DNA from: Micromonospora cathayae
GTDB lineage: Bacteria; Actinomycetota; Actinomycetes; Mycobacteriales; Micromonosporaceae
Length of the DNA: 64,000 nucleotides
Assembly (NCBI RefSeq): GCF_028993575.1
Contig: NZ_CP118615.1
Location: 186,001 to 250,000, forward strand
Direction: 5' to 3'
Made by a program: the position numbers and the translations under genes. Below, in pieces: positions 6,362 through 34,855 of this stretch (its first letter is position 1; each line of letters begins with the position of its first letter). The notes under the pieces were generated by a model that searched no databases, was not told where the DNA came from, and saw only the letters and a list, made by a program, of their open reading frames with translations.

Positions 6362-7267
6362 GTGAGCGGGCAACTGTGGATTCCGGAGGCGCTGGGCTGG
6401 GTGCGGGAGGCGCCCGCCGGCCGGGAGTGGCTGGCGGGGCTACCGGATCGGCTGGCCGCCTGCGCGGAACGCTGGCAGCTGCGCCTCGGACCCGCGTACG
6501 ACGGGGGTGTCGCCTCGCTGGCGTTGCGCGCGGACCTGCCGGACGGGACACCGGCCGTGCTGAAGCTCCAGTACCCCGATCCGGACAGCGTGCACGAGGC
6601 GACGGCGCTGGCGGCCTGGGCCGGCGACGGCGCGGTCCGGCTGCTGGCCCACGAACCGACCTGGCGGGCACTGCTGGTCGAGCGGTGCCTGCCCGGCGAG
6701 CCGCTGCGCCACCGCCCGCCCGAGGAGGCGCTCGGGGTGGTGGTCGATCTGCTTCCCCGGCTCTGGCTGCCGGTCGACGGGCCAACTGCCGCCGGTGTCG
6801 CCGTGGCCGGGATCACCCCGCTGGCCGAGGAGGCCGCCGGCTGGGTGGAGCGGATGCCGGGCAACTGGGAGCGGGCCGGCCGCCCGTACGATCGGCGGCT
6901 GCTCGACGCCGCCCGTGACCTGCTCGCCGACCTGGTTCCGACCCAGGGCGGACAGGTGCTGGTCAACCAGGACCTGCACGCCGGTAACGTGCTGCGCGCC
7001 GACCGCGAGCCGTGGCTGGTGATCGACCCGAAACCGCTGGTCGGCGAGCGCGAGTTCGGCGTGGTGCCGATGGTGCGCGGCGCGGAGCTGGGCCACTCCC
7101 CGGCGGCGGTCCGGTACCGGCTGGACCGGCTCACCGCCGAGCTGGGGCTGGACCGGGACCGGGTCCGGGGCTGGACGATCGGCCAGACGCTGGCCTGGAG
7201 CATCGGCGCGGGGCAGGTCTTCCCGCAGCAGGTCGAAGTGGTCCGCTGGCTGCTCGACGGCAGCTGA
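6362..7267 (+). CDS. Aminoglycoside/hydroxyurea phosphotransferase family protein (APH(6)-like)
   Basis: A 301-residue kinase-like protein of the streptomycin 6-kinase/hydroxyurea phosphotransferase group. K68 in AVLKLQYP is the likely ATP-binding lysine. QDLHAGNVL (D204, N209) is the catalytic loop, with Asn-Gln replacing the common His-Gly before the Asp, and VIDPKPLVGE (D222) is the metal-binding motif. The start GTG is chosen because it lies 17 bp after the WGR gene stop and gives the expected N-terminus. It could inactivate an aminoglycoside-like compound or phosphorylate a small metabolite; the sequence alone does not decide. It converges on the exporter gene with a gap of only 3 bases. 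Confidence 0.75.
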   Translation: MSGQLWIPEALGWVREAPAGREWLAGLPDRLAACAERWQLRLGPAYDGGVASLALRADLPDGTPAVLKLQYPDPDSVHEATALAAWAGDGAVRLLAHEPTWRALLVERCLPGEPLRHRPPEEALGVVVDLLPRLWLPVDGPTAAGVAVAGITPLAEEAAGWVERMPGNWERAGRPYDRRLLDAARDLLADLVPTQGGQVLVNQDLHAGNVLRADREPWLVIDPKPLVGEREFGVVPMVRGAELGHSPAAVRYRLDRLTAELGLDRDRVRGWTIGQTLAWSIGAGQVFPQQVEVVRWLLDGS

Positions 7268-7270
7268 CGG

Positions 7271-8845
7271 TCAGGACGCGCCGGAGTCCTCCGGGGCCGA
7301 CTCGGCTCCGTCCCCACCCGAGTGCCGGAGCATCGTCGCGGTGAGCACCGCGGTCAGGGCCAACGTCGCGGCGGCGACCCCGGTCGCCACCGAGAAGCCG
7401 TTCTCGAAGGCGCGCTGGGCGGCCGCGACGATCTGCTGGGCCAGCGCCGGCTCGTGGGTGCTCGCCACCTCGGTCGCCGCGCCGATGGACTCCCGTACCG
7501 TCCGCTCGTCGTCGGCGGCGAGATCCGGCGGGCGGATCGTGGCGCCGTAGACGGCCAGCAGGACGGTGCCCAGGATGGCGACGCCGAGCCCGGCGCCGAG
7601 TTCGAACGAGGTCTCCTGGACGGCCGCCGCCTCACCGGCGCGCTCGGGTTCCGCCGAGGCCATGATGGCGTCCGCGCCGAGCGTCATGACGACGCCCGCC
7701 CCCGCCCCGGCCACCAGCATCGCCACCACGGTCTGCGGGTAGTGGCCCGTCCCGCTCACCACCGTCAGGCCGAGCATGGCCACGGCGAACGCGCCGAGCG
7801 CCAGCGCCATCGCTCTGCCGCGTCCCCACCGCTCGGACAGCCAGGGTGCGCCGATCGCGCCGACCGCATTGGCGGCGGCGAGCGGCACGAGCGCGAACCC
7901 GGCGGTCAGCGGCGAGTACCCGTCCATCAGCTGGAACCACTGGGTGAGCAGGTACAGCAGCCCGACGTACGAGCCGAAGCAGGCCAGCACGCAGACCACC
8001 GCGAGGGAGAACCGGCGGTTGGCGAAGAGGGTGATGTCGAGCAGCGGCTGGGTCAACCGGCGTTGCCGGGCCGTGAACCAGACCAGCAGCGCCAGCCCGC
8101 CGAGCCCGCTGACCAGCAACGTGGGCTCCAGGCCCAGGGCGGACCCGGCCTCCTTGATGGCGTACACCAGCCCGCCCAGCCCGACGATCGACAACAGTGC
8201 GCTGGTCAGGTCCCACCTGCGGGGGGTGCTGCTCTTCGACTCCGGCACCACCAGGAAGCCGGCGACCAGCACCACCACGATGATCGGCACGTTGACCAGG
8301 AACACCGAGCCCCACCACCACCGCTGGAGCAGCAGCCCGCCGATGACCGGCCCGACGGTGGCTCCGACACTGTGCGCGGCGGTCCACAGGCCGAGGGCGA
8401 GGGTCCGCTCGCGGTCGTCCACGAAGACCACCCGGATGATCGACACGGTCGCGGCGATGATCATGGCGGTACCGGCCCCGAGCAGGGCCCGGGTGACGAT
8501 CAACTGGGTGGTGGTGGTCGAGAGGGCCGCCCCCAGCGAGGCGAGCCCGAACACCGCGAAGCCGGCCAGCAGCAGCCGCTTGCGTCCGATGCGGTCGCCG
8601 ATGGTGCCGGAGGTCACCAGCAGCGCCGCCACGGTCAGGGAGTAGATGTCGACGATCCAGAGCAGGGCGGTCCCGCTCGGCAGCAGGTCACGGGTCAGAT
8701 TGGGAACCGCGACATTCAGCACGGTCAGATCGATGCCCGCCAACAGCAGACTGGTGCACATGACCGCGAGAACGGCCCACCGGTTGTTCCGTGAGACGGG
8801 TGCGCCGACCGACACGGCGGGCCCCTCCGCATGCTCCAGGGTCAT
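7271..8845 (-). CDS. DHA2-family MFS multidrug exporter (14 TM)
   Basis: A 524-residue drug:H+ antiporter of the EmrB/QacA type. The first helix carries the DHA2 motif GIDLTVLNVAVP, and motif A (GDRIGRKR) lies in the loop between helices 2 and 3; about 14 hydrophobic segments follow. The ATG at 8845 is preferred over an upstream in-frame start at 8890 because the protein then begins with a short polar segment before helix 1 and clears the divergent promoter region. It is divergent from an HxlR-type regulator, the usual arrangement for a drug- or metabolite-inducible pump. The adjacent biosynthetic-looking operon makes product export or self-resistance a reasonable inference. Confidence 0.88.
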   Translation of the reverse strand: MTLEHAEGPAVSVGAPVSRNNRWAVLAVMCTSLLLAGIDLTVLNVAVPNLTRDLLPSGTALLWIVDIYSLTVAALLVTSGTIGDRIGRKRLLLAGFAVFGLASLGAALSTTTTQLIVTRALLGAGTAMIIAATVSIIRVVFVDDRERTLALGLWTAAHSVGATVGPVIGGLLLQRWWWGSVFLVNVPIIVVVLVAGFLVVPESKSSTPRRWDLTSALLSIVGLGGLVYAIKEAGSALGLEPTLLVSGLGGLALLVWFTARQRRLTQPLLDITLFANRRFSLAVVCVLACFGSYVGLLYLLTQWFQLMDGYSPLTAGFALVPLAAANAVGAIGAPWLSERWGRGRAMALALGAFAVAMLGLTVVSGTGHYPQTVVAMLVAGAGAGVVMTLGADAIMASAEPERAGEAAAVQETSFELGAGLGVAILGTVLLAVYGATIRPPDLAADDERTVRESIGAATEVASTHEPALAQQIVAAAQRAFENGFSVATGVAAATLALTAVLTATMLRHSGGDGAESAPEDSGAS

Positions 8846-8902
8846 GGTCGGATTCTCGGTGGACGGGTGCGAACCGACAAGTACGCACATTCCTGTCCAG
8901 TA

Positions 8903-8918
8903 GTGTCACGGGTGATAC
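8903..8918. promoter_or_regulatory. Candidate HxlR operator between exporter and regulator
   Basis: An imperfect palindrome GTGTCACGGGTGATAC (7-bp arms, 6 of 7 matching, 2-bp spacer) lies 18 bp before the HxlR start codon, in the 91-bp divergent intergenic region. Winged-helix dimers such as HxlR bind symmetric sites of about this size. This is a prediction from symmetry and position only. Confidence 0.4.
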
Positions 8919-8936
8919 CAGGGAGGTGCTGCGGCG

Positions 8937-9356
8937 ATGCGTACGAATGTGGCTCACGCGCTTGATTCCTGCGCCATCGAGGTCGCGATCGAGGTGGTGG
9001 GCGGCCGGTGGAAGTTGGCGATCCTGTCGCAACTGTTCACCGGGACGAAAAGGTTCGGTGAACTCCGACGGGCGCTGCCGGGCGTGACCCAGCGGATGCT
9101 CACCCGACAACTGCGCGAATTGGAGGCCGACGGCCTGGTCACCCGGACCATCTACCGGGAGATCCCGCCGAAGGTCGAGTACTCACTGACCGAGATCGGC
9201 CGCAGCCTGGAACAGACCGCGAAACTGCTGGACGAGTGGGGTAACTGGTACCGCACGGTGATCCGGGAAACGGCACCGACGCCGCCCGGGACGGACGGGC
9301 CGGACGCCGGGCGGCCGGACGAGCTGACGGTGCCGGTGCCCGGGTCCGCACCGTGA
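8937..9356 (+). CDS. HxlR-family transcriptional regulator
   Basis: A 139-residue winged-helix regulator. It shows the HxlR signature CAIEVAIEVVGGRWKLAIL, KRFGELRRALPGVTQRMLTRQLRELEADGLV (recognition helix) and YSLTEIGRSL. A single Cys at residue 12, at the position used for redox sensing in YodB/HypR-type members, is present. A GGGAGG ribosome site precedes the ATG by 10 bases. It probably controls the divergent DHA2 exporter. The C-terminal tail after residue 110 is Pro/Gly-rich and probably disordered. Confidence 0.88.
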   Translation: MRTNVAHALDSCAIEVAIEVVGGRWKLAILSQLFTGTKRFGELRRALPGVTQRMLTRQLRELEADGLVTRTIYREIPPKVEYSLTEIGRSLEQTAKLLDEWGNWYRTVIRETAPTPPGTDGPDAGRPDELTVPVPGSAP

Positions 9357-9428
9357 GCCCCCGCTGGTGGTCGCCCACCGGCGCCCGGTGACCGGCGCGG
9401 GCGACCGTCCCCGGGCACGCCGGAACGA

Positions 9429-9468
9429 CCGCCGCGGGCCCCGCGCGGGGCGGGGGGGCACGCGGCGG
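9429..9468. terminator. Convergent hairpin terminator
   Basis: An outer 8-bp stem CCGCCGCG/CGCGGCGG (9429-9436 with 9461-9468) encloses an alternative 14-bp palindrome at 9438-9451. It sits between the convergent HxlR and CTP synthase genes and probably ends transcription from both sides. Confidence 0.6.
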
Positions 9469-9489
9469 CCGTCAGCCGACCCGGGCGGC

Positions 9490-11190
9490 CTAGGCGACCT
9501 GCCCGTCGTGCACGAGCCGGGCCGCGCTGCCGGCGACGTGCCCCGGCGACGACAGGGCGGACACCAGCCCCGCACGGTCGCAGGCGGCCCGGACGAAGGC
9601 GAGGAATAGCGGGTGGGGCCGGGTCGGCCGGGACTTGAACTCCGGGTGTCCCTGGGTACCGACGAAGAACGGGTGCACGTCCGACGGCAGTTCGACGAAC
9701 TCGACGAGTTCGCCGTCCGGCGACGTGCCCGAGATCCGCAGCCCCGAGTCCTCCAGGACCGCCCGGTACTTGTTGTTGACCTCGTACCGGTGGCGGTGCC
9801 GCTCCGAGACGACGAGCCCGCCGTACGCGGCGGCGGTGACGGATCCGGGCCGCAGCCGGGCCGGGTACGCGCCGAGCCGCATGGTGCCGCCCAGGCCCCG
9901 CCGGCCCGCCACCACGTCGTGCTGGGCGGCCATGGTGTGCACCACCGGGTGCGGGCTGTGCGGATCTACCTCGGCGGAGTTGGCGTCCGCCAGCCCGGCC
10001 AGCGACCGGGCGGCCTCGATCACCATGCACTGGAGGCCCAGACAGAGACCCAGGACCGGGATCCGGTGGATCCGGCCGTGACCGATCGCCCGCACCTTCC
10101 CCCCGATGCCACGGATCCCGAACCCGCCGGGGACCAGGATCCCGTGCACGCCCGCCAGGGACCGGTCCGCCCCGTCCGGGGTCCGGCAGTCGTCGGCGTC
10201 CAGCCGTCGCACGTCGACCGACACCCCGTGCGCGAAACCGGCGGCCCGCAACGCCTCGGTGACCGAGAGGTAGGTGTCCGGGGACTCGACGTACTTGCCC
10301 ACCAGGGCCACCTCGACGGTGCGGTCGGCCGCGCCGGGCCGACCGGTCAGCCGCTCCCAGGCCCGCAGGTCGGGTTCGGCGGTACGCAGTCCGAGGCGGC
10401 GGGTGACGAAGGTGTCGAGCCCGTTGGTGTGCATGAGCCGGGGCAGGTCGTAGATGGAGGGCGCGTCGGGTGCGGACACCACCCCGTCGACCGGTACGTC
10501 ACAGGTGAACGCGATCTTCCGGGCCAGGCTCTCCGGCAGGGCACGGGCGGACCGGCAGACCAGCACGTCCGGTTGGATGCCGAGGTTGCGCAGGGCCGCC
10601 ACCGAGTGCTGGGTGGGTTTGGTCTTCAGTTCGCCCGACGGCGAAATGTACGGCACCAGTGACACGTGGACGAAGACGCAGTTCTCCTGGCCGACCTCAC
10701 GGCGGATCTGTCGGGCGGCCTCGATGAACGGCAACGACTCGACGTCGCCCACGGTTCCGCCGATCTCGACGATCCGCACCTCGTCGCCGGTGTTCGTCAC
10801 CCGGGTACGGATCTCGTCGGTGATGTGCGGAATGACCTGGACGGTGTCGCCCAGATAGCGGCCCCGTCGTTCCCGGTCGATGACCGAGGAGTAGATCTGT
10901 CCCGAGGTGACGTTCGCGGTGCGATCCAGTTCGACGTCGAGGAACCGTTCGTAGTGGCCGATGTCCAGATCGGTCTCGGCGCCGTCCTCGGTGACGAAAA
11001 CCTCACCGTGCTGGTACGGGTTCATGGTGCCCGAGTCGACGTTCAGATACGGGTCGAGCTTCTGCATCCCCACCTTCACGCCTCTGGCGGTCAGCAGACA
11101 GCCCAGACTGCTCGCCGTGAGGCCCTTGCCCAGGGAGGAGGCCACCCCCCCGGTCACGAATACGTACTTGGTCGCGGTTCCTGGCGGCAT
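9490..11190 (-). CDS. pyrG: CTP synthase, last gene of the cytosine-nucleotide operon
   Basis: A 566-residue enzyme that aminates UTP to CTP using glutamine and ATP. The synthetase domain (about residues 1-270) shows the P-loop [26 protein letters not shown] and [15 protein letters not shown]. The glutaminase domain (about 285-550) shows the oxyanion loop PGGFGIRG, the nucleophile in GLCLGLQ and the HPEFKSRP catalytic pair, so both activities look intact. The ATG at 11190 is chosen because GGGAGG lies just upstream and the protein then starts like family members; the longer open frame adds an Arg/Pro-rich leader. It is separated from the kinase-reductase gene by 125 bp containing a nested hairpin. 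Its place in a secondary-metabolism-like operon suggests an extra, pathway-dedicated copy, but a housekeeping role cannot be excluded from this window. Confidence 0.92.
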
Positions 11191-11234
11191 CGGAGCCTCC
11201 CGGGGTGTCGAGCCTCTGCCGACCGCCCGACGCG

Positions 11235-11301
11235 GCCGTGGCCGACGAGGGGCCGGTGGTCGCCGGTCGGCGGACCACCGACCCCGATCACCGGCCACGG
11301 C
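11235..11301 (-). promoter_or_regulatory. Nested hairpin upstream of pyrG, candidate attenuator
   Basis: A 10-bp stem (11235-11244 with 11292-11301, GCCGTGGCCG/CGGCCACGGC) encloses an 8-bp stem (11254-11261 with 11273-11280, CGGTGGTC/GACCACCG). The segment 11251-11258 (GGCCGGTG) can alternatively pair with 11289-11296 (CACCGGCC), so two mutually exclusive folds exist. It lies 45 bases before the pyrG start in the longest gap of an otherwise tight operon. It may be a terminator, an attenuator or an RNA-processing site; no CTP-sensing motif was recognised. Confidence 0.4.
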
Positions 11302-11315
11302 GGCGGATCGTCGGT

Positions 11316-12599
11316 TCAGAGGACGGTGGTGGCGGTGGTGTAGCTGCCGGCGTGGTAGATCAGCGGCAGGTGCAGACGCCGGATCCGGGCCTCGACCGCC
11401 CGCGCGACCACCAGGTGGTGGTCACCGGCCTCGAACCTCGACTCCGGTACGGCCCGCAGGTAGGCCGGGACCCCGTCGAGGACCGGCTCCCCACTGGGCA
11501 GCCGCGACCACGACGTGGGCGCGGCGAAGCGGTCGACGTGACTCGTCGCGAAGCGACGGGCGATCTCGTGCTGGTCGGCCGAGAGGAAGTTGACCACCAC
11601 GCTCGTCGCCGCGCTGACGGTCTCCCAGGACGAGGCGGACGTCGACAGCGCGAAGGCCACCAACGGTGGGTGCAGCGAAACGGAACTCAGCGACGTGGCG
11701 GTGAAACCGACCGGCCCGGACCCCGCGTCCGCGGTGATCACCACCACCCCGGCCGCGTGGCCCCGGAACAGCGACCGGAAGGTGGCCGGGCTGGTGATCG
11801 TCTCCTGCGGTCCGTCGTCCGGCGTACCGTCCGGACCGACGGGCGGGTGGGCGGCCAGCCGGAGCATGCCCCGCTCGTCGGCCAGGGACACCAGCCGGTC
11901 GACGACCTCCGCCGGGGTCATGCTGGTGGTGTCCACCTCGACCGCGTCCGGTGCCTTCGCCAGCGGACTGACGGCGCGGTTGCGGTCCCGGGTGTCCCGG
12001 CGCAGCAGTGCCTGGCGGACGGCCATGATCCCGTTCCAGGTGGTCACCCCCTCCTGCCGCGACCGGCGCAGGGCACGCTCGTCGTCGGACGCGGTCAGGA
12101 AGACCTTCAGCCCGGCTTCGGGGGCGACGACGGTGCCGATGTCCCGGCCCTCCACCACGATCCCCCCGCGACTGGCGACCAGGCGGGCGATGACGTTCCG
12201 CTGGATCTGGTGCACCGCCTCCCGGACGATCGGGTGACTCGCCACCGACGGAACGGCTTCCGACACCTGCCGGGAGCGCAGTTGGGCCTCGACCCGCTCG
12301 CCGTCCACCGTCACCTGCTGGCCGAGCGACGGGTCGACGCTGATGTCGATGTCGAGCCGACCGGCCAGGTCGGCGACCTGGCCCCCCTCCGGGCTGAGGC
12401 CGTCCCGCAGCACCGCCCAGGCCACCGCCCGGTAGATGGCTCCGGTGTCCAGGTAGGCCGCCCCCGACAGCAGCGCCAACCCGCGCGCGGTGGTGGACTT
12501 GCCGGCCGCCGCCGGTCCGTCGATCGCCACCACGCCGCGCAACGCGCCCCGCGATTCGCCCTCGGAGTGGGCCGCCGACACGATCTGCGAGCTGGTCAT
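11316..12599 (-). CDS. Cytidylate kinase fused to a flavin reductase domain
   Basis: A 427-residue two-domain protein. Residues 22-245 are a complete cytidylate kinase: P-loop GPAAAGKS (28-35), DTGAIYRA (51-58), [13 protein letters not shown] (148-160), [13 protein letters not shown] (201-213) and DAVEVDTT (218-225), so CMP/dCMP phosphorylation should be intact. After a linker (246-269), residues 270-427 are an FMN-binding split-barrel flavin reductase of the RutF/HpaC type, with [16 protein letters not shown] (298-313) and [15 protein letters not shown]. Such reductases supply FMNH2 to two-component monooxygenases, one of which is encoded two genes upstream. The ATG at 12599 overlaps the stop of the FMN reductase gene (ATGA). 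I know of no characterised protein with this architecture. Confidence 0.85.
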
Positions 12600-13153
12600 A
12601 CGGCCGTCGCCTCCGCCGGCTGGCGCAGCGCGGCGACCGTGGCGGCCACCACCGGCGCGTACCGACCGGCCCACTCCCGGGCCAGCTCCGGTACCGCGCC
12701 CAGCTCGGCCTCCTCGACCAGCAGCGAGGGGACCGGCAGGCTCGCGCCCAGCTCGGCGAGAACCGGACGGAGGTGCAGGTCGGCCACGAGCTTGTGGGCG
12801 AGGGACGCCGACACGCTCACCGGGACGGCCACGACCCGGGCCAGGCCACCCGGCGGGAGCTGGTCGAGGAAGAGCTTGAGCAGCCCGGTGAAGCTCGACT
12901 TGTAGACCGGCGTCGCGACGATCACGACCTCGACGTCGGCCGGGATCGCGTACCGGTCCCGGTGGCCGCCGGACGCGTCCACCAGTTCCGACGCGTGCTC
13001 GGCCAGGTCGATGACGTGGGTGGTGGCGTCGTGCCGGCCGGTCTGCGACACGAGCGCCCGGGCGAGTTCCTCCGCCACCGCGCGGGTACGGGACCCGGGG
13101 CGGGGATTACCGATCACCAGTGTCGTCCGCGAGATGGTGCCGTGGTGTCCCAT
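12596..13153 (-). CDS. NAD(P)H-dependent FMN reductase, flavodoxin fold (SsuE-like)
   Basis: A 185-residue flavoprotein of the NADPH-dependent FMN reductase family. It has the N-terminal phosphate-binding loop GNPRPGSRT after a beta strand (LVIGNPRPGS), and the isoalloxazine-contacting segment ATPVYKSSFTGLLKLFLDQLP that is typical of SsuE/MsuE enzymes. Those enzymes supply reduced FMN to flavin-dependent monooxygenases such as SsuD. A GGAGACCGAAGG sequence precedes the ATG. It starts 27 bp after the stop of the monooxygenase gene and overlaps the next gene by 4 bp. Together with the reductase domain of the downstream fusion, this operon encodes two unrelated flavin reductases. Confidence 0.85.
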   Translation of the reverse strand: MGHHGTISRTTLVIGNPRPGSRTRAVAEELARALVSQTGRHDATTHVIDLAEHASELVDASGGHRDRYAIPADVEVVIVATPVYKSSFTGLLKLFLDQLPPGGLARVVAVPVSVSASLAHKLVADLHLRPVLAELGASLPVPSLLVEEAELGAVPELAREWAGRYAPVVAATVAALRQPAEATAV

Positions 13154-13180
13154 CCTTCGGTCTCCTACCTCTGGACTCCG

Positions 13181-14491
13181 TCAGAACTCGGTGAGGGTCT
13201 GCCGGAGGGTCGGTTTCGTGTACGCGGAGCGGGTGAGGCCGCGTCGTTGCAGGGCGGGCACGAGGCCGTCGGCGATGTCGATCGCGAAGCGGCGGTTCAT
13301 CCGCAGCGACGGCGTCGTGATCACGAAGCCGTCGCCGCCGACCTCCTCCATCGCCTCGCCCATCCGCTCCGCCACCTGGTCGGGGGTGCCGATGAGTTCC
13401 AGCGAGGACACCAGGCCGCCGGCGCTGTCCATCACGAGCTGGCGGAGCGTCTTGCCGCTGCCCCACTGCTGGAACATGTCCAGCGACCCCTGTTCGCCGT
13501 TGGTGGTCAGCCGTTCCGGCAGCGGTTCGTCGAGGTCGAACCGGGCGAAGTCGATCTCGGTGATCGACGACGTCTGGATCAGCAGGTCCCTGATGAACTG
13601 CGGCGACGAGACCATCCGCTGGTGGCGTCCGATCGCCTCGCGTTCGGTCTCACCGAGCGTCGGGGTGACGCAGAACAGCACCTTGATCTCGTCCGGATCG
13701 CGGCCGGCCGCGACGGCGTGCGCCCGTACGTCGTCCCGGAACCGTCGCATCCCCTCCACCCCGTTGGCGATCGCGATGATCGCGTCCGCGTTGCGGGCGG
13801 CGAACCGGCGACCGCGCGGTGACGCACCGGCCTGGACGAACGCGGGACGGTGCTGGGGCGAGGGCACGGTGTTCAGCGGCCCCCGGCACTGGTAGTACTT
13901 CCCGACGAAGTTGATCGGCCGTACCTTGCTGGCGTCGACGTAGACACCGTTCTCCCGGTCCAGCACGACGGCGTCCTCGTCCCAGGAACCGAAGAGTTCC
14001 CGGACCAGGTCGACGTACTCGTCGGCCATCTCGTACCGGACGTCCCGGGGCGGCAGCGACTCGAGCCCGAAGTTGCGGGCCGCGAGGTCCTCCGCGCTGG
14101 TCACGATGTTCCAGCCGAACCGCCCCTCGAGCAGGCTGTCCATGGTGGAGGCGAGCCGGGCGGTCATGAACGGCGGGTACGCCATGGTCGACAGGGTGGC
14201 GACGATGCCCAGGTGGGAGGTGGCCAGGCCCATCGCCGCGGCCAGCGGCACCGGGTCGTGCTTGGGCGCGATCGTCCCCTGCCGCAGGGCGGCCTCCGAC
14301 GAGCCGCCGTACGTCTCGGGGACCATGAGCTTGTCCTCGATGATGACGAAGTCGAAGCAGGCCCGTTCGAAGGCGCGGGCCACCTCCACGTGGAAGCGAC
14401 CGTTCCACGGCGACCCGCCGTTGCCGAACGGCCCCTGCCAGTCGTCGGGGGTGAAGTTGAAGATCGACGCGAGGTGAAACTTGGTCGGCAC
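13181..14491 (-). CDS. Flavin-dependent monooxygenase, NtaA/SnaA/DszA class (luciferase-like)
   Basis: A 436-residue luciferase-like monooxygenase. The start of the protein (PTKFHLASIFNFT...WNGRFHVEVARAFERACFDFVIIEDK), the segment GRFGWNIVTSA, and FVQAGASPRGRRFAARNADAI are characteristic of the NtaA/SnaA/DszA group, which uses FMNH2 and O2. Members of this broader class include DszA and RutA, which cleave C-S or amide C-N bonds, the latter in uracil. The GTG start is supported by AAAGGAG 6 bases upstream. FMNH2 would come from the SsuE-like reductase and the kinase-fused reductase downstream. The substrate is not known; a pyrimidine or pyrimidine-derived ring is the best inference from the neighbours. 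Confidence 0.88.
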   Translation of the reverse strand: MPTKFHLASIFNFTPDDWQGPFGNGGSPWNGRFHVEVARAFERACFDFVIIEDKLMVPETYGGSSEAALRQGTIAPKHDPVPLAAAMGLATSHLGIVATLSTMAYPPFMTARLASTMDSLLEGRFGWNIVTSAEDLAARNFGLESLPPRDVRYEMADEYVDLVRELFGSWDEDAVVLDRENGVYVDASKVRPINFVGKYYQCRGPLNTVPSPQHRPAFVQAGASPRGRRFAARNADAIIAIANGVEGMRRFRDDVRAHAVAAGRDPDEIKVLFCVTPTLGETEREAIGRHQRMVSSPQFIRDLLIQTSSITEIDFARFDLDEPLPERLTTNGEQGSLDMFQQWGSGKTLRQLVMDSAGGLVSSLELIGTPDQVAERMGEAMEEVGGDGFVITTPSLRMNRRFAIDIADGLVPALQRRGLTRSAYTKPTLRQTLTEF

Positions 14492-14529
14492 TACTGGTCT
14501 CCTTTGCGGGACTCGGTGTCAGGTCCTCG

Positions 14530-15462
14530 TCACGGCGTCGCGGCGGGCAGCTTCGGAACGGCCCGCAGGTCCGCGCCGCCACCCGATTCCGCACCGCCAT
14601 CCGGTTCTGTGGCGGTGGGCGACTCCGCAGCACCACCCGGTTCCGCGGCGGCTGCCGGCTCCGCGGCGGCGGGCCGACGCATCCCCGGCCCCTGGCGCAC
14701 CAGCGCCGTCGCGCCCGAGATGACGTGCCAGAAGAGCCGCTCGCCCAGCTCCTGACTGGCGCCGACGGTGGAGGAGAGCACACCCTGGTTCGTGGTGACC
14801 GTCGGATCGGCGGGATGCAGGTAGATCCCGGCGAGCGGTGGGTTGTGGTGTTCCGGTCGCTCCGGGGAGACGAGGTCGGGCCGGAGGAACAGCATGAGAC
14901 TGGTTTCGGTGACCCCGGCGTGCTCGGCGTGCCAGCCGGGGAACCCGGCCACCTCCTCGTTCAGCCACGCGTCCGTCACCAGACTCCACCAGCTGAACGC
15001 GATGGCCTCCCGGCCGTCGAGCAGACCCCGCTGGCGGACGTCGTCGACGGCCTCGAAGATCAGCGCCTCGTTCTCGAAGTGGCCGTTGAGCAGGATCAGC
15101 CGGTGGAACGGTAGGTGACACAGCGATTCCAGCGTCTCCGTCAGGTACCGGATGAGCGTGTCGCCGCGCAGGTGGAGGGTGCCGGGGAAGGCCGGCCCTC
15201 CCCCGCTCTGCGGCAACGACCGGGCCCCGATCGGCTGCACCGGCAGGCGGTACCCGTCGAGTTCGAAGGCGAGCTGCTGGGCCAACGCCTCCGGGATGAC
15301 GGTGTCCACCGCCAGGGGCAGGTGGGGGCCGTGCTGCTCGATGCTGCCGAGCGGCCAGATCAGGGTCCCGCCGCGCACGGCCTCCGCCACGGTGGCACTG
15401 CTGAGTTCGGCGAGGTTGCGGGACCACGGTGAACGGATCTTCATCTCGGCCCGGCCCCTCAT
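14530..15462 (-). CDS. Creatininase-family cyclic amidohydrolase
   Basis: A 310-residue metal-dependent amidohydrolase. The residues expected to bind the two metals are all present: E42 and H44 in GSIEQHGPHLPL, D53 in AVDT, H128 and E130 in NGHFENE. From memory these have the same spacing as E34, H36, D45, H120 and E122 of Pseudomonas creatininase. The segments SGGGPAFPGTLHL and PGWHAEHAGVTETSLML also closely match true creatininases, including the tryptophan before the EH pair. The reaction would be hydrolysis of a five-membered or similar cyclic amide. The ATG at 15462 overlaps the upstream stop (ATGA); an ATG at 15444 has a GAGGGG upstream and is an alternative. The last 45 residues form an Ala/Glu/Pro/Gly-rich tail not needed for catalysis. 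Confidence 0.85.
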   Translation of the reverse strand: MRGRAEMKIRSPWSRNLAELSSATVAEAVRGGTLIWPLGSIEQHGPHLPLAVDTVIPEALAQQLAFELDGYRLPVQPIGARSLPQSGGGPAFPGTLHLRGDTLIRYLTETLESLCHLPFHRLILLNGHFENEALIFEAVDDVRQRGLLDGREAIAFSWWSLVTDAWLNEEVAGFPGWHAEHAGVTETSLMLFLRPDLVSPERPEHHNPPLAGIYLHPADPTVTTNQGVLSSTVGASQELGERLFWHVISGATALVRQGPGMRRPAAAEPAAAAEPGGAAESPTATEPDGGAESGGGADLRAVPKLPAATP

Positions 15463-16376
15463 CCCGCCACGGCGGCGTGGTCGGGCGTCACCGCTGCCGC
15501 GGGTGCCGAGGCGACCTCGTCGAGGATGCGCCGCAGGGTGTCGAACATGTTGGTGTGCAGGGCGGTGTAGACCTGCGCGACGGACGCCCCGACCCGCAGG
15601 TAGTCGTGCACGTCGGCACCGGAGGTGACGCCCCCGGAGGCGAGGATCGGCACGTCGAAGCCGCGCCGACGCAGCCGGACGATCGCCGCCAGCACCAACG
15701 GCTTGATGCCGGGACCGGAGTAGCCGTAGACCCCGCCCAGGGCCAACTGCCCGTCGTCGGCGATCGCCGCGCCCGGGATCGTGTCACTGATCGTGATCGC
15801 GTCGGTGCCGCCCTCGATCGCGGCGGTGACCCGGTCCGGCAGGCCCTCGCCGATGCCCAGCTTGACCGCGATCGGCGCGGTGACCCGCTGCCGCACCGCG
15901 CGGGTGTAGGCGAGGACCCGTTCCGGGGTGTCCTGGAGATCGCCCTCCTCCTCGTTGAGACAGGAGATGCCGAGTTCGAGCGCGGGGGCACCGGCGAGCA
16001 CCACCGCCTCCGCGAGACTGCCCAGTTCCTCGGGGCTGTCCGCGTGGATGGAGGCGATCACCGGCGACCGGTCGTCGGCGAGGGACCGCAGCAGCCGCAG
16101 CCACCAGCTGACCGGACGCTTGGAGTAGGTGGTGCTGTTGAGCATGCCGGTCGGGATCCGTACGATCCGTTCGTCCAAAGTGGTCGGCGGGTTGGGATGA
16201 ATGGTCTTGGTGACCACCGCTCCCGCCCCGGCCGCCAGCAGCTTCCGAATGTTGCGCTCCTGGTCGGTGAGCAGACCGGAACCGATCACCAGGGGATTCG
16301 CGAGTCGGAGACCGAGCACCTGTACGTCATTCATTTCGGATCCAATGCCGAAGCGGTCGGAGTGGACATGGCTCAC
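15459..16376 (-). CDS. Dihydroorotate dehydrogenase-like FMN oxidoreductase
   Basis: A 305-residue TIM-barrel flavoprotein related to class 1 dihydroorotate dehydrogenase and PreA. The FMN-binding parts are conserved: K57 in VVTKTIH, VKLGIGEG, and ILASGGVTSGADVHDYLRVGASVAQVYTAL at the C-terminus. The substrate region differs from the family: class 1 enzymes have NxSCPN around the catalytic Cys, whereas this protein reads GISCLN (C139, N141), and the NSMGLPN-type loop is replaced by NSTTYSK (80-86). The Cys base is therefore kept but the orotate contacts are not, so another dihydro-ring or enamide substrate is likely. The GTG start overlaps the CMP hydrolase stop (GTGA); an ATG at 16334 is an alternative. 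Confidence 0.85.
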   Translation of the reverse strand: MSHVHSDRFGIGSEMNDVQVLGLRLANPLVIGSGLLTDQERNIRKLLAAGAGAVVTKTIHPNPPTTLDERIVRIPTGMLNSTTYSKRPVSWWLRLLRSLADDRSPVIASIHADSPEELGSLAEAVVLAGAPALELGISCLNEEEGDLQDTPERVLAYTRAVRQRVTAPIAVKLGIGEGLPDRVTAAIEGGTDAITISDTIPGAAIADDGQLALGGVYGYSGPGIKPLVLAAIVRLRRRGFDVPILASGGVTSGADVHDYLRVGASVAQVYTALHTNMFDTLRRILDEVASAPAAAVTPDHAAVAG

Positions 16377-16915
16377 GAGATCGCGCTGGCGAGAATTGCT
16401 TCCCGCTGCCGCCCGGTGGCGGACAGGATCCCGTTGATGAGGAACTCCGGCTCCTTCAGGACGAGCTCCAGGTCGAGGACGGTCACCGATCCCACCATGT
16501 GCAGACCCTTGAGAAGGTGACTGGCGGAGTTGTTGATCGGAAGCGACGTGACCAGGACGATCGGGCGACCGAGAGCGGTGGCCCAGCCCAGTTCGATATG
16601 CGTCCCGTCGGTCCGCAGCAGCGTACCGTCCTCACCCACGGGGAGGAAAGGGACGAACACGTCGCACTTCTTCATCCAACGGAAGTCCCGCAGGGAGACC
16701 TGCTCCGGGGTGAAGGCGGCCGTCTTGTCGCCGAACTCTTCCACCACGTGGGCGGAGAAAACGTTCCCGCCGTTCGCCCGTATCTGACCGATGGCCGTCG
16801 AGATGGACTCCTGGAGGCTGGGCAGGAAGCCAACCGGACGAATGGCGTGCTGGATGGGGCCACCAACGAATACGTCGAGGCCACCCAGGTACTGTTCGGG
16901 TTTCTCGCCCACCAC
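16373..16915 (-). CDS. MilB/BlsM-like CMP N-glycosidase (nucleoside 2-deoxyribosyltransferase fold)
   Basis: A 180-residue protein with the nucleoside 2-deoxyribosyltransferase fold. It shows DVFVGGPIQ (14-22), NVFSAHVVEEFG (51-62), KKCDVFVPFLP (82-92) and THIELGWATALGRPIVLV (105-122), in which E108 would be the catalytic glutamate. These blocks follow the order and spacing I recall for MilB (mildiomycin) and BlsM (blasticidin S), which hydrolyse CMP to free cytosine and ribose 5-phosphate. The start codon is GTG, preceded by GGAAAGGATCA; a second GTG follows directly. It is the first gene of the operon, 452 bp downstream of the LmbU-family gene. Hydrolysis of CMP is the best prediction; hydroxymethyl-CMP or another nucleotide is possible. 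Confidence 0.75.
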   Translation of the reverse strand: MVGEKPEQYLGGLDVFVGGPIQHAIRPVGFLPSLQESISTAIGQIRANGGNVFSAHVVEEFGDKTAAFTPEQVSLRDFRWMKKCDVFVPFLPVGEDGTLLRTDGTHIELGWATALGRPIVLVTSLPINNSASHLLKGLHMVGSVTVLDLELVLKEPEFLINGILSATGRQREAILASAIS

Positions 16916-17367
16916 TGATCCTTTCCGGAACGAGTTGGTTCACCGAAGGGGTACGACAGCAACGCGACCCCTGGCGACGCCGATAGCGAGGCATCAATGG
17001 ACGCCAATCCGAGAGGCTACCTGTCAGCATTAGTGCCGGCAAGGGAGCCGCACGCGATTCGTAGATCGTTCAGTGCATCCCGGAGAAGATCGTTTTTGTG
17101 GTCCACGCGGAGCCGGCCGACACCGATTCCGCGGCGGGACGGCGGAGGAGCCCTCGCCGTCCCGCCGCGTCCCGCCGGCGGGACGGCAGACCCCTGGGCG
17201 ACAGACCGGACGGAGTCGGCGACCTACACGCTGAGCAGCGCGGACGACGAACCCACCGGCCGGATGGGGGCAGCCGAGAGCCGGGCTACACCACCCGACC
17301 GCGCGCCCGCGCCTCGGACGGAATTCCCAGCAGTCGCCCCGCCCCGTGCAACGGCCGCCCCGAGGGA
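16916..17367 (-). other. Long intergenic region upstream of the cytosine operon
   Basis: This 452-bp gap holds no convincing gene. Bases 16981-17100 are noticeably poorer in G+C than the surroundings, as expected for a promoter or leader, and contain a direct repeat AGATCGTT at 17063-17070 and 17087-17094. Bases 17131-17184 contain nested palindromes (listed separately). Open frames crossing the region, such as one on the minus strand at 17030-17419, have no family features or ribosome site. I could not assign -10 and -35 boxes with confidence. Confidence 0.5.
17131..17184. promoter_or_regulatory. Cluster of inverted GGCGGGAC half-sites, candidate LmbU-type operator
   Basis: Four copies of GGCGGGAC lie within 52 bp: 17133-17140 (+), 17159-17166 (-), 17169-17176 (-) and 17177-17184 (+). 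They form a perfect 14-bp inverted repeat (17131-17144 with 17155-17168, 10-base loop) and, directly next to it, a perfect 16-bp palindrome GTCCCGCCGGCGGGAC (17169-17184) whose centre is CGCCGGCG. From memory, the lincomycin regulator LmbU recognises a CGCCGGCG-type palindrome. The site lies about 220-250 bp upstream of the first operon gene and downstream of the LmbU-family gene. Confidence 0.5.
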
Positions 17368-18099
17368 CTACCCGGCGGGAAGATCGTCCGATGCGTCGTC
17401 CAGGATGGACATAATCCATTCCTCGAGCGTCCGGTTGGTACGGGCGGCGGCCCGCTGCCAGCGCTCGAACCGATCCGAGGCGGGGTCCACGGACAGAATC
17501 AACGGAAGCCGCTTACGGACTGTCGACGAGGCGACCCGGGAACCGCCCTCGTCGTTCCGTACCCATTCCTCGCCAGGTGGCGGCGGATCGACCCGGTCGG
17601 CCCGCTTCCGCAGTTCCCGGCGCAACGTGTTCTTCGACCACTTTCCCTCGGCGGCCCGCTGGAGCCAGAGGTCTTGTTCCGCCTTGGAGAGGGTGGCGAC
17701 CTCGGCGTGATGGGAGAAGCTCAACTGCGCCCAACGCCGGTGCGGCTCGAAGCGGCGAGCGACCCAGGCATAGTTCCGCAGGGTCTGATAATCCAGCGAC
17801 GTCCGTTCGATCGCGGCGGCGTAGCGGTCCGGGTACATGCGTTCGCCGTAGAGCAGCCAGTCGCCGAGCCACCAGGCGGAGGACCGGACGATAAGGGAGA
17901 GTTGCCCGCCGATGCGGTCCCAGGTCGAATAGGGGACGCTCGCCGGAATGTGCAGGCTGGTCGGTTGCGGGACAACGACGCTGTCCAATCCCAGGTTCGC
18001 CCCTCGCCCCGCCGGATGTTTCGGGTGAAGGGCCAGGGCGTGCCGGACGCTCCGCGCGGCCGGGGGTATGGAAGCGGACAGGGAACGATCGGTCGGCAT
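17368..18099 (-). CDS. LmbU-family cluster-situated transcriptional regulator
   Basis: A 243-residue protein whose central part (about residues 48-165) matches the LmbU/NovE/HmtD family of antibiotic-cluster regulators: LHIPASVPYSTWDRIGGQLSLI, SSAWWLGDWLLYGERMYPDRY, LDYQTLRNYAWVARRFEPHRR and SFSHHAEVATLSKAEQDLWL. Family members activate lincomycin, novobiocin and hormaomycin genes through a helix-turn-helix. The ATG at 18099 has GGAGGAGG just upstream; an ATG at 18114 is a possible alternative. It lies on the same strand as, and just upstream of, the cytosine-nucleotide operon, which is the main reason to regard that operon as a natural-product cluster. Confidence 0.85.
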   Translation of the reverse strand: MPTDRSLSASIPPAARSVRHALALHPKHPAGRGANLGLDSVVVPQPTSLHIPASVPYSTWDRIGGQLSLIVRSSAWWLGDWLLYGERMYPDRYAAAIERTSLDYQTLRNYAWVARRFEPHRRWAQLSFSHHAEVATLSKAEQDLWLQRAAEGKWSKNTLRRELRKRADRVDPPPPGEEWVRNDEGGSRVASSTVRKRLPLILSVDPASDRFERWQRAAARTNRTLEEWIMSILDDASDDLPAG

Positions 18100-18543
18100 G
18101 CCCTCCTCCGGCATCAGAAGAGCACCTTCCCCATCGGCGGCCCGGCGATCACGGCCCCACCGGTCCGGCCGGCCGGAAATCGACACGGCACTCCGGAAAC
18201 CGCCAGGAAACCGTGGTCGTCGACACTACGGCTAAGGTCTGTCCGCTTTGGACCAACGTGACAGCACATACCGGCAGAGTAACTACTCAACGTGGCGGAT
18301 CTGTAGCGGAGAGCCCAACGGATGCCCGGCCGCCCACAGTGACGACCGTCACGTTCAATGGGGGTTGCCGGACCCGCCGACGACCGGGCGGGGCGCGGCG
18401 CCGGTCGGCCCCCGGGGCCGGAGTTCTCCTACCGGACACGCCCGGGCAGCACTCCGCAACCCGACGGCCACCGTCCCCCGCGTGCCCACGGAACGGTCAG
18501 GGCGTACCCGGCGGCCGGTGTCGCGGTACCGGGTGGGCGCGGC
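18100..18543. other. Intergenic region between the regulator and the DNA glycosylase, with two small palindromes
   Basis: No gene is seen in this 444-bp stretch. It must hold the promoter of the LmbU-family gene. Two short symmetric sites stand out: GAGTAACTACTC at 18277-18288 (5-bp arms, 2-bp spacer) and GTGACGACCGTCAC at 18339-18352 (6-bp arms, 2-bp spacer). The surrounding 18230-18310 is relatively AT-rich. The rest, 18360-18543, is plain GC-rich sequence downstream of the glycosylase gene. Confidence 0.4.
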
Positions 18544-19353
18544 TCAACCGGCCTGACAGCCGGCACACCAGTAGAGGTTCCGGCCGCCCAGTTCACCCCG
18601 GGCCACCGGGGCGCCGCAGACGTGACAGGGCTGACCCGGCCGGCGGTAGACGTACACCTCGCCACCGTGCCGGTCGATCCGGGGCGCGCGACCCATCGCC
18701 TCCGGCAGATGGTCGGGGCGGACGGTGTCGATCCGGCCGCGCTCGACGGCGACCGTCATCAGCTCGACCAGATCCGCCCAGAGGGTCCGCCACCCGTCCG
18801 GGGTCAGCTCCCGGCCGGGCCGCAGCGGCGGCAGCCCGGCCCGGAACAACGCCTCGGTCACGAAGATCAACCCGGTGCCGGCCACCACCGACTGGTCCAG
18901 CAGCAGCGCGGCGAGCGGGGTGGCGCTGCGCCGGATCCGGTCGAACGCCCGCGCCGGGTCGGCGTCGGCGCGCAGTGGATCGGGGCCGAGCCGGGCCCGC
19001 AACGCGTCCACCTCGGGCGGGGTGAACAGCTCGCAGGCGGTCGGCCCGCGCAGATCCAGCCAGTGCCGGTCGGTGGTCAGCCGGAGCCGGACCTGCCCGA
19101 CCGGCGCCGGCGGCTCCCCCGCCCCGTCGGCGAACTTGCCGTACAGCCCCAGGTGGACGTGCAGGGTCAGCTCGCCCGCGTAGTGGTGCAGCAGATGCTT
19201 GCCGTACGCCTCGGTGCGCTCCAGCACCGCGCCGGAGATCAGCGCGGCCCCCTCGGCGAACCGGCCCTGCGGGCTGCTGACCTGCGGCTTGTCCCCGGCG
19301 AACAGCTCGGCGTGCCGAGCCGCCAGGCGGTGAATCGTATGTCCCTCCGGCAC
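18544..19353 (-). CDS. Fpg/Nei-family DNA glycosylase (endonuclease VIII-like)
   Basis: A 269-residue base-excision repair enzyme. The start is fixed by chemistry: after removal of the initiator Met, the GTG at 19353 exposes Pro in VPEGHT, the catalytic proline with its Glu partner. An upstream TTG at 19362 would bury it. GKHLLHHYAGELTLHVHLGLYGKF contains the conserved Lys and the helix-two-turn-helix strand, RSATPLAALLLDQSVVAGTGLIFVTEALFRAG is the H2TH motif, and CHVC...CAGC forms the C-terminal zinc finger. PEGHT in place of PELPE points to the Nei side of the family (oxidised pyrimidines). It appears unrelated to the neighbouring biosynthetic operon. Confidence 0.9.
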   Translation of the reverse strand: MPEGHTIHRLAARHAELFAGDKPQVSSPQGRFAEGAALISGAVLERTEAYGKHLLHHYAGELTLHVHLGLYGKFADGAGEPPAPVGQVRLRLTTDRHWLDLRGPTACELFTPPEVDALRARLGPDPLRADADPARAFDRIRRSATPLAALLLDQSVVAGTGLIFVTEALFRAGLPPLRPGRELTPDGWRTLWADLVELMTVAVERGRIDTVRPDHLPEAMGRAPRIDRHGGEVYVYRRPGQPCHVCGAPVARGELGGRNLYWCAGCQAG

Positions 19354-19501
19354 AGCCGCCAAGCGTAGTCAGCGACACCCGTCGCATCGACCACGCCCCC
19401 GCCGCCCTGTCGATCAGGAGGTTCGAGCACGGCTCCGCGCGAACCGGTACGTGAACCGCTTGACCGTGCGAGAGGCCCCCGCCGGGGCGGCCTACCTGTC
19501 G

Positions 19502-20455
19502 TCAGTCGGCCAGGCCGCCGGCGAACGGCGTCGACCGCCACTGTTCCACCAGCGGCCCGATCGCTTCCACCAGCATGGGTAGCTGCGGTGCCAGGGCCAG
19601 GGCGGCGAGGCCGCGCAGCATCCCCACGGCGGTCACGAAGCGCAGGACGTCCCGGTCCAACCGCCGCAGCCCCAGCCGGTCCGCCTCACGGTCGTAGGCG
19701 GCCTCGCCGTCCGGGCCGAGCCCGGCCAGGTCCCACTCGACGGGCCCCAGGGTCACCATCTCGAAGTCGGCGTACAGGTTGCCGTGCAGGCTGGGGAAGA
19801 TGTTGGCCGGCGGACAGTCCCCGTGCACGGGTCGCAGGTCGATCCCCGGGAACCGGGCCTCGAACTCCGCCCGAGACCGCACCATCGGCTCCAGGGCCCG
19901 CCACTCGCGGCCGGCGCGGTCCAGATCGGCCGGCTCGACGAGGTCGGGACGCTCGGCCAGCAGCGCCAGACTGTCCTCGATGAACCGTGGCTCGGCGGCG
20001 GACAGGAACGACAGCTCGCCCGGGTAGTCACGCATCGCGGCGTGCAGCCCGGCGACCAGGCCGCAGTTCGCCACGTAGTCGGGTTCCGCGTCCGGGGCCG
20101 GTTCGACGTACTGCCAGAAGGTCATCGAGAACCCGTCGACCTGAACGGGTTCCGCTGGCACGAGCGGGCTGGGCGGGATCACCGGAACGCCCCGGTCGGC
20201 GAGCCACCGGACGACGCCCAGCTCGGCCCGCTGGCGGGTCGCCTGGCTGGCCAGGTCCGCGTAGTGCGGCAGCACCGTGAGCACCCGGGCCACCACCGGC
20301 GCGGGTTCGAGGTGGACGACCACGGAGAACACGTCGTGCAACACCCGGGGACCGGTCACGGTGAGGCCGAGGCCACGCGCGGCACGCACCGCCGCGTCGA
20401 CCGCGCGGGCGGTCCGGTGGGCGAGCTGCTCGGGCGTCAGGAAGGCACTCATCAC
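19502..20455 (-). CDS. Aminoglycoside phosphotransferase-like kinase (APH family)
   Basis: A 317-residue kinase-fold protein. VHGDCPPANIF is the catalytic loop (HGDxxxxN) and YADFEMVTLGPVEWDLAGL is the metal-binding block, with Glu after Asp-Phe where many members have Asp. VVARVLTVLP may hold a glycine-loop equivalent, but the usual ATP-binding lysine is not obvious because Arg takes the likely position. The GTG at 20455 is followed directly by ATG at 20452, and neither has a strong ribosome site. The substrate is unknown. Members of this family with no resistance context are common in actinomycetes. Confidence 0.7.
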   Translation of the reverse strand: MMSAFLTPEQLAHRTARAVDAAVRAARGLGLTVTGPRVLHDVFSVVVHLEPAPVVARVLTVLPHYADLASQATRQRAELGVVRWLADRGVPVIPPSPLVPAEPVQVDGFSMTFWQYVEPAPDAEPDYVANCGLVAGLHAAMRDYPGELSFLSAAEPRFIEDSLALLAERPDLVEPADLDRAGREWRALEPMVRSRAEFEARFPGIDLRPVHGDCPPANIFPSLHGNLYADFEMVTLGPVEWDLAGLGPDGEAAYDREADRLGLRRLDRDVLRFVTAVGMLRGLAALALAPQLPMLVEAIGPLVEQWRSTPFAGGLAD

Positions 20456-20487
20456 GAGATCGTGTCATTCCGCCGCCGGGTGGCGGA

Positions 20488-20603
20488 GACCCGGGCCGCC
20501 CGGGTCCCGTCGCCGCCGGGCGCGAAGGGGCCCACCCGAAAGGTCCATCGATATGTACGGGCCAGCGACCAGCGTGGGGATGTTCACCCGACGGTCGGGT
20601 GAA
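20488..20603. promoter_or_regulatory. Two palindromes upstream of the GT2 gene
   Basis: A palindrome with 9-bp arms (20488-20496 with 20498-20506, GACCCGGGC/GCCCGGGTC) and a second with 9-bp arms TTCACCCGA/TCGGGTGAA and a 3-base spacer (20583-20591 with 20595-20603) lie in the 178-bp divergent gap. The second, 30 bp before the GTG start of the glycosyltransferase, is well placed for an operator or a leader hairpin. If translation started at ATG 20580 it would lie inside the coding region. Confidence 0.35.
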
Positions 20604-34807: not shown

Positions 34808-34855
34808 GCGGCCATCCTGACCTGCGCCGGCAACCGTTGCCCAGAGTGTGCGTAC

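Follow-up and report, generated by a model that had tools for sequence, protein, structure and literature searches.

The window, a stretch of 64,000 nucleotides from the genome of the soil bacterium Micromonospora cathayae, carries seven minus-strand genes that are all open and without internal stops, and domain assignments checked with Pfam and NCBIfam bear out the gene set described in an earlier note. These genes and the features around them are as follows.

7271..8890, minus strand: DHA2-type efflux MFS, SmvA/LfrA/QacA-like, 539 aa (PF07690)
8937..9356, plus strand: HxlR-family regulator, 139 aa (PF01638, 115 bits, cut-off 20.8)
9490..11190, minus strand: CTP synthase, 566 aa (TIGR00337, 711.6 bits)
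11316..12599, minus strand: CMP kinase (Cytidylate_kin)-flavin reductase (Flavin_Reduct) fusion in one frame, 427 aa (PF02224 and PF01613)
12596..13153, minus strand: SsuE-like NADPH-dependent FMN reductase, 185 aa (PF03358)
13181..14491, minus strand: LLM, FMNH2-dependent monooxygenase of the NtaA/DmoA family, 436 aa (TIGR03860, 394.9 bits)
14530..15462, minus strand: CRN, creatininase-family amidohydrolase, 310 aa (PF02633, 187.4 bits)
15459..16376, minus strand: DHOD-like flavoenzyme, 305 aa (PF01180)
16373..16915, minus strand: NDT, CMP N-glycosidase/CMP hydrolase, 180 aa (PF05014)
17130..17169, no strand: perfect 15-base inverted repeat with a 10-base loop (arms 17130-17144 and 17155-17169), terminator-like, between LmbU and NDT
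17368..18099, minus strand: LmbU-family transcriptional regulator, 243 aa (NF038070, 212.2 bits)

Overlaps of 4 bases join NDT to DHOD, DHOD to CRN, and the FMN reductase to the CMP kinase fusion, and the remaining gaps measure 38, 27, and 125 bases. We compared the locus with 17 sister loci of what we define as type A, the combination of NDT, DHOD, and CRN (the triad) with LLM and the MFS, which all 17 and the window contain. By sequence comparison, the operon unit is larger than the interval 9490..18099: we count the divergent HxlR and efflux MFS genes as members because their products are 62% identical to the HxlR protein of one sister locus (L015) and 54-60% identical to the MFS of 17/17 type A loci, respectively.

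The LmbU regulator passes its family model (cut-off 125; scanned on a longer reading, 17368-18186) and is co-directional with the operon, but it is probably a transcript of its own upstream of it, since the 452 bases between LmbU and NDT hold the inverted repeat, whose position suggests a terminator-like role. LmbU had been taken to mark the cluster as specialised metabolism, an argument that fails because no LmbU match was present in the stretch examined at any of the 17 type A loci. An HxlR homologue was found in 15 of them, and an AsnC-type regulator, with no match in the window, in 9. Positions 7000-20600, searched for RNA regulation, matched no Rfam family at E values up to 0.5. Twenty flanking reading frames, scanned for a larger cluster, contained no NRPS or PKS, in agreement with the expected small, polar, nitrogenous product; they matched glutamate-cysteine ligase, redox, glycosyltransferase, epimerase, kinase, response-regulator, ABC, 2-oxoglutarate dehydrogenase, Pta, and hydrolase families, or nothing.

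The predicted cytosine-to-amidine triad

NDT has the PF05014 fold and GTHxExGWA motif of the CMP hydrolases MilB and BlsM, and its best solved relatives are a CMP N-glycosidase (4jen), BlsM (5vto), and a CMP/hydroxymethyl-CMP hydrolase (4jem). Both the motif and E108 are invariant in 24 aligned sequences. The enzyme is thus predicted to split CMP into cytosine and ribose 5-phosphate, the entry step already proposed for this operon. The MilB and BlsM pathways (mildiomycin, blasticidin S) keep cytosine as a base, whereas the genes that follow NDT here are predicted to reduce and open it.

For the DHOD-like enzyme, dihydropyrimidine dehydrogenase (DPD) was both the best sequence match among solved structures and the closest fold to the predicted model (two AlphaFold models served for fold ranking only). 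It shares its fold and catalytic Cys with DPD, PreA, and DHOD, but at 305 residues it lacks the NADPH/Fe-S domains of DPD, and it scores 87.6 bits against the PreA equivalog NF006183, under the cut-off of 335. The catalytic C139 is kept in 57/57 sequences, as are G136 and D198, which replace DPD N668 and N736, two Asn residues that contact the pyrimidine. We predict that this enzyme reduces cytosine to 5,6-dihydrocytosine; the operon offers it no obvious partner for electron transfer, which counts against the proposed route.

CRN best matches the creatininases 1q3k and 1j2t among solved structures, and all 57 sequences keep the metal-site motifs EQHGPH, WWS, and NGH(Y/F)EN. The label "true creatininase-like" applies at the level of the Pfam family (cut-off 31.3) but goes too far for the NCBIfam creatininase model TIGR04448, where CRN reaches 199.8 bits against a cut-off of 235. 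CRN is predicted to hydrolyse the C2-N3 bond of dihydrocytosine, giving a carbamate that would lose CO2 to leave 3-aminopropionamidine.

The three genes lie adjacent in the order NDT, DHOD-like, creatininase-family, an arrangement we take to be a module of the Cgc4-6 type, cgc4-6 being presumably the genes that make 3-aminopropionamidine. We consider it quite likely from these sequence features that the triad makes this compound. Because the DHOD-like enzyme is a DPD relative with its catalytic Cys and CRN keeps the creatininase motifs, the cytosine ring is probably reduced and then hydrolysed to an acyclic amidine instead of being opened oxidatively. Of the earlier proposal, oxidative opening with re-closure to a cyclic amidine, the amidine is supported, whereas the oxidative opening and the re-closure are not. 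The predicted logic is that of reductive pyrimidine catabolism (uracil to dihydrouracil to beta-alanine), namely reduction, hydrolysis, and loss of CO2, but with cytosine as substrate, an amidine analogue of beta-alanine as product, and a creatininase-like hydrolase in place of a dihydropyrimidinase.

Triad loci and their distribution

NDT was used to fetch loci (best 80 of 135), so all locus counts are conditional on it; gene presence was counted by tblastn because the gene caller merged or missed some genes. NDT, DHOD, and CRN occurred together in 56 of these 80 loci, one of them the Streptomyces netropsis pyrrolamide cluster (L046), and 24 had neither DHOD nor CRN. Order and strand were kept within 2.5 kb in 53/56 triad loci, which argues that the grouping is more than chance. 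As for the kinase-reductase fusion, no other protein combined the two domains among the 120 best matches listed. NDT itself is patchy: of 354 genomes in the family, 5 have it, and the window's own is one of these.

The operon had been thought to bring together activities that no one characterised pathway was known to contain, but its core sits in the congocidine/distamycin (cgc, dst/pya) clusters of Streptomyces, where L046 and a further six loci of type D have the same triad order and share with the window the predicted 3-aminopropionamidine unit. Beside the operon there are no pyrrole-precursor genes and no condensation or adenylation protein; the window has LLM, CTP synthase, the CMP kinase-reductase fusion, and the MFS instead. 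Condensation and UDP-sugar dehydrogenase queries from L046 had no match in the window, and the only pyrrolamide query that matched was an epimerase (28%, 21781-22581), outside the operon. Pyrrolamides contain 3-aminopropionamidine, which the literature, in the portions consulted, names as a precursor without naming the genes that make it.

The type A sisters (L008-L024) come from Streptomyces, Kitasatospora, Amycolatopsis, and a record titled Streptosporangium, and have no NRPS. Their LLM proteins are 76-81% identical to that of the window in 17/17 loci, and 13/17 have a flavin reductase (31-39% identity), which stands alone before NDT, whereas in the window it is fused to the CMP kinase and lies downstream. 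AsnC and CTP synthase genes are divergent in the sisters, with variation among them, whereas the window's CTP synthase is co-directional. A nitroreductase-family gene occurs in 9/17 and is absent from the window. LLM was missing from the stretch examined in 36/56 triad loci (types C, D, E, Photorhabdus, and other). In a FastTree tree of the triad, the group that holds the window together with types A, B, C, and E has support 0.99. Type A is not one clade: the other 16 type A loci are separated from the window and L024, which branch outside them, by loci of types C and B, and type E, which lacks LLM, nests inside type A. The node that would put L024 next to the window's group has a support of 0.09. 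The triad core is not unprecedented, and the LLM-type cluster is a variant of triad-bearing clusters. We found no description of this cluster type or of the triad chemistry in the portions of the open-access literature searched, including PMC4047045, PMC11784345, PMC9491552, PMC4795551, and PMC11195616.

Predicted oxidation, precursor supply, and the likely product

LLM passes the NtaA/DmoA model (cut-off 279.7), and it differs from the two-component monooxygenases NtaA, DmoA, BdsA, HcbA1, and RcaE in that its predicted substrate is an amidine made by its own operon. In triad or NDT genomes, a search for LLM elsewhere gave no match at E<=1e-100 in 7/8, the single match being L024's own. We think it somewhat likely that LLM acts on 3-aminopropionamidine or its direct precursor. 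Its characterised relatives break, for the most part, C-N or C-S bonds (NtaA, EmoA, and RcaE cleave C-N), so that N-oxygenation is a tentative guess at the reaction, to which we give rather less than even weight; we know of no luciferase-like family enzyme that N-oxygenates an amidine. The FMN reductase, called SsuE-like earlier, falls under the SsuE cut-off (TIGR03567, 78.5 versus 164.05 bits) and has no counterpart in the 17 type A loci; it is predicted to supply FMNH2. The kinase-reductase fusion is the special feature of the window; with the start set at 12599 it has 427 aa, as does database entry P0241.

On balance, we favour a specialised-metabolite cluster built on a cytosine-to-3-aminopropionamidine module plus an oxidation, a frame that leaves the exact product aside. 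Gene content, enzyme families, active-site signatures, and recurrence of the triad in several cluster types are established, and from these we infer every reaction. Against the frame stand the scores of the DHOD-like enzyme, CRN, and the FMN reductase under their equivalog cut-offs, the conditioning of the locus counts on NDT, the split placement of type A in the triad tree, and the presence of CTP synthase in only part of the sisters. CTP synthase and CMP kinase would keep up the supply of cytidine nucleotides for the triad, and LLM, with FMNH2 from the two reductases, would N-oxygenate 3-aminopropionamidine, most likely to the amidoxime, the primary amine being the second choice of site. The product may then leave through the cation-type MFS, which scores 369 (SmvA), 325 (LfrA), and 280 (QacA/B) bits, each under its cut-off.

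The CTP synthase is a second copy, 64% identical to one elsewhere in the genome, and adjoins the operon in 9/15 judgeable type A loci (5 long matches, 4 as first codons before a contig end). These observations would also suit a self-resistance copy, with the product inhibiting CTP synthase, but the enzyme retains its glutaminase motifs, Cys and His alike, along with the GDxES loop, and shows no special residue; the other 6/15 loci have no CTP synthase within 10 kb upstream, so the gene is not obligatory; and the adjoining CMP kinase fits the predicted supply role better. We regard resistance as unlikely.

Nitrogen salvage, in which the operon would degrade CMP, cytosine, or an amidine while LLM breaks C-N bonds, draws on a catabolic-looking alphaproteobacterial unit (TetR / binding protein-permease-ATPase-LLM-RutF-like, 8/8 loci), where one binding protein (L107) passes the urea-type TIGR03427 (402.3 versus 333.9). 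The genes of the present operon, however, code for an efflux pump but for no importer, and a degradation pathway would gain nothing from a CTP synthase. The patchy distribution of NDT and the occurrence of sister modules in NRPS and ligase clusters are in keeping with a specialised metabolite, as supposed earlier, leaving salvage improbable.

The same RutF-like neighbour (252.7 bits in L106, cut-off 254.75; homologue in 8/8 loci), together with LLM and the flavin reductases at the locus itself, could suggest that a RutA-like LLM opens cytosine oxidatively before the creatininase-like enzyme re-closes it to a five-membered cyclic amidine. We consider this very unlikely: the RutA/RutF model offered earlier is not supported, with LLM at 64.8 bits against 498.3 for RutA (TIGR03612) and the fusion at 68.3 against 254.75 for RutF (TIGR03615), the 36 triad loci lacking LLM in the stretch examined argue that the triad works without its oxidation, and the DPD-like enzyme would be left jobless. 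Least weight of all goes to a nucleoside-antibiotic path returning modified cytosine to sugar (as in mildiomycin, blasticidin, or 5-azacytidine-like compounds), which the joint presence of CMP hydrolase, CMP kinase, and CTP synthase and the solved NDT relatives might recall, but which has no glycosyltransferase in the operon or the conserved sister set and whose base DHOD and CRN would destroy. A 5-azacytidine cluster was rejected on this last ground, and the literature among the matches listed (best 20 of 110) concerned other uses of the drug.

Within the favoured cytosine-to-amidine frame, we offer as a speculative and rather unlikely specific that the product is a very small amidine, free and either N-oxygenated or N-N-cyclised, made straight from the cytosine ring (3-aminopropionamidoxime, hydroxylaminopropionamidine, or 3-aminopyrazoline), with LLM as amidine N-oxygenase and the fusion tying nucleotide and FMNH2 supply together in one protein. 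To our knowledge, this natural-product class has no known example.

If the frame is correct, a three-gene cytosine-to-amidine module would be reused across chemically different clusters, including NRPS pyrrolamides and ATP-grasp ligase, salicylate-NRPS-like, PKS-linked Photorhabdus, and NRPS-free monooxygenase types, and searching with the triad would be a way to amidine natural products which NRPS/PKS-keyed tools may miss. Gly/Asp for Asn/Asn would be a testable residue signature of cytosine-reducing dihydropyrimidine dehydrogenases, and luciferase-like monooxygenases would gain an unexplored substrate class. The cluster may thus point to tiny antibiotic-like molecules of a family not yet explored, built from an amidine block known from DNA-binding antibiotics.

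Operon layout in the window

The seven genes and the LmbU regulator gene listed in the earlier note were present as it described them, on the minus strand, and what it observed in the sequence was right. From the gene for the predicted CMP hydrolase (NDT) to that for CTP synthase, the junctions are three overlaps of 4 bases and gaps of 38, 27, and 125 bases, and because they are so short we read these genes as one operon. The LmbU gene lies 452 bases upstream with a perfect 15-base inverted repeat in the spacer, and its transcript is therefore probably separate. The unit extends past the end originally given, to two further genes whose families also accompany the operon in related genomes:

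8937–9356, plus strand (divergent): HxlR regulator, PF01638, 115 bits
7271–8890, minus strand: efflux-type MFS transporter

The genome is 7.2 Mb on one contig. Elsewhere in the window, a low-scoring arginine deiminase/dimethylarginine hydrolase-like protein (27189–28073, plus strand; PF19420, 27.6 bits; PF02274, 25.5 bits) showed no apparent link with the operon. Positions 30956–34855 are 79% GC with long overlapping frames on both strands, and within them 32001–34000 has a strong AT skew (0.57).

Distribution of the triad and its cluster types

NDT was found in only 5 of 354 genomes of the host's family, the window's own counted and two of the five weak, which suggests sporadic acquisition in this family. 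For one family member, the match has the coordinates of Dactylosporangium roseum L066, which places the host in that family. A profile search of a one-genome-per-species collection confirmed 135 stretches with NDT relatives, and the best 80 were kept and queried with the window's proteins. The triad of NDT, a DHOD-like flavoenzyme, and a predicted creatininase-family hydrolase (CRN) occurred in 56 of these 80 loci, with order and strand conserved within 2.5 kb in all except L074, L076, and L078 (53/56). In the other 24, NDT was the only triad member found; since loci were fetched via NDT, these counts do not speak to DHOD or CRN without it. We sorted the triad loci by gene content, assigning each family with Pfam at one or two loci and tracing it through the others by tblastn; LLM denotes an NtaA/DmoA-family monooxygenase.

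Cluster types among the 56 triad loci
Type A (n = 17; L008–L024): LLM and MFS, without a condensation protein
Type B (n = 3; L026, L027, L030): LLM, condensation and adenylation proteins, and a chorismate-binding enzyme resembling salicylate synthase, with a weak carrier domain
Type C (n = 15): ATP-grasp ligase
Type D (n = 7): pyrrolamide-type sugar-nucleotide genes; condensation protein also in 5
Type E (n = 2): penicillin-amidase-like gene
Photorhabdus type (n = 9)
Other (n = 3)

In type A, L023 shows a stretch resembling adenylating enzymes (31%) on the opposite strand, 6.5 kb off. The type B hosts are Streptomyces sp. LBL, Kutzneria viridogrisea, and Amycolatopsis coloradensis, and the product of these loci is possibly a salicyl-capped oxidised amidine. 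Among the Photorhabdus loci (L050, L051, L056, L058, L059, L064, L067, L069, L073), the triad of L056 adjoins PKS proteins and a carrier-aminotransferase fusion. Eleven Xenorhabdus loci (L052, L053, L055, L057, L060, L062, L063, L065, L068, L070, L079) carry NDT at 47–52% identity, with no match to the window's DHOD or CRN, and would represent a different use of the predicted CMP hydrolase; in L053, NDT follows a co-directional gene run including a kinase-like protein and a phosphatase/acetyltransferase fusion.

A predicted route to 3-aminopropionamidine

Streptomyces netropsis (L046) is among the type D hosts, and a related protein is named Dst4 in UniRef. The pyrrole of pyrrolamides is derived from sugar precursors, which makes the triad the logical candidate for supplying the amidine; cgc4-6 have reportedly been assigned to making 3-aminopropionamidine. 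The claim that this combination of activities was novel must be cut back, as the core module is already known from pyrrolamide clusters. We also replace the oxidative ring opening of cytosine proposed earlier with reduction and hydrolysis, a chemistry consistent with the triad: C5–C6 of cytosine would be reduced to give dihydrocytosine, which would be cut hydrolytically between C2 and N3 to a carbamate that would lose CO2, leaving H2N-CH2-CH2-C(=NH)NH2, the amidine counterpart of beta-alanine.

Noformycin is the cyclic amidine ADPC joined to 3-aminopropionamidine. An ectoine-synthase homologue accompanied the ATP-grasp ligase in 4 of 15 type C loci, namely L025 (PF06339, 139.9 bits) and L033, L036, and L066, whose homologues are 55–71% identical to that of L025; the other 11 had no ectoine-synthase match within the locus stretch examined. 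As a side reaction, ectoine synthase can convert glutamine to ADPC (PMC4795551). These four loci are candidate noformycin-type clusters, combining a cyclic glutamine amidine with 3-aminopropionamidine, and their ectoine-synthase homologues are an independent hint of 3-aminopropionamidine. L076 and L078 pair the triad with an ectoine-synthase homologue without an ATP-grasp match.

The monooxygenase-bearing variant

Its gene content (triad, LLM, MFS, and HxlR) makes the window a type A cluster. The triad tree places it as a deep branch within a well supported group formed by types A, B, C, and E (support 0.99) and outside the type A loci (16, L024 not counted), and therefore type A is not a single clade there; the node that would place L024 beside the window's group has a support of 0.09, and both type E loci are nested within type A. 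By the topology of the LLM tree, the window clusters with L024 and with Saccharothrix and Lentzea relatives. Unlike the 17 sister loci of type A, the window has a flavin reductase fused behind its CMP kinase, an SsuE-like FMN reductase, and LmbU, the last found in none of the sisters, whereas a nitroreductase-family gene and an AsnC regulator, each in 9/17 sisters, are missing from it. The fusion matched 2908 database proteins at E ≤ 1e-20, and among the best 120 only the window's own has both domains.

Upstream of the operon, five sisters (L009, L012, L013, L015, L019) have a long match to CTP synthase, and four more (L010, L011, L014, L016) apparently hold just its opening codons where the contig ends, with a match of only about ten codons in L014 and L016; it is absent from the 10 kb upstream in six (L018, L020–L024). 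This count leaves out L017, which ends too early, and L008, which has no upstream DNA. The four are draft contigs that appear to break off within the opening codons of this gene, and these ends are perhaps assembly breaks at stretches near-identical to the housekeeping gene.

Around LLM relatives in an alphaproteobacterial family (L105–L112), we observed a conserved unit of a TetR regulator and the series binding protein (SBP), permease, ATPase, LLM, and RutF-like protein. In four of the eight (L105, L107, L108, L112), it adjoins genes of families represented in L107 by guanine deaminase, OHCU decarboxylase/HIU hydrolase, and a xanthine dehydrogenase-type protein.

We found no description of the LLM-type variant in searches of an open-access library. 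The part still new is an NRPS-free variant that carries a monooxygenase, present in 17 named genomes among the 80 loci kept.
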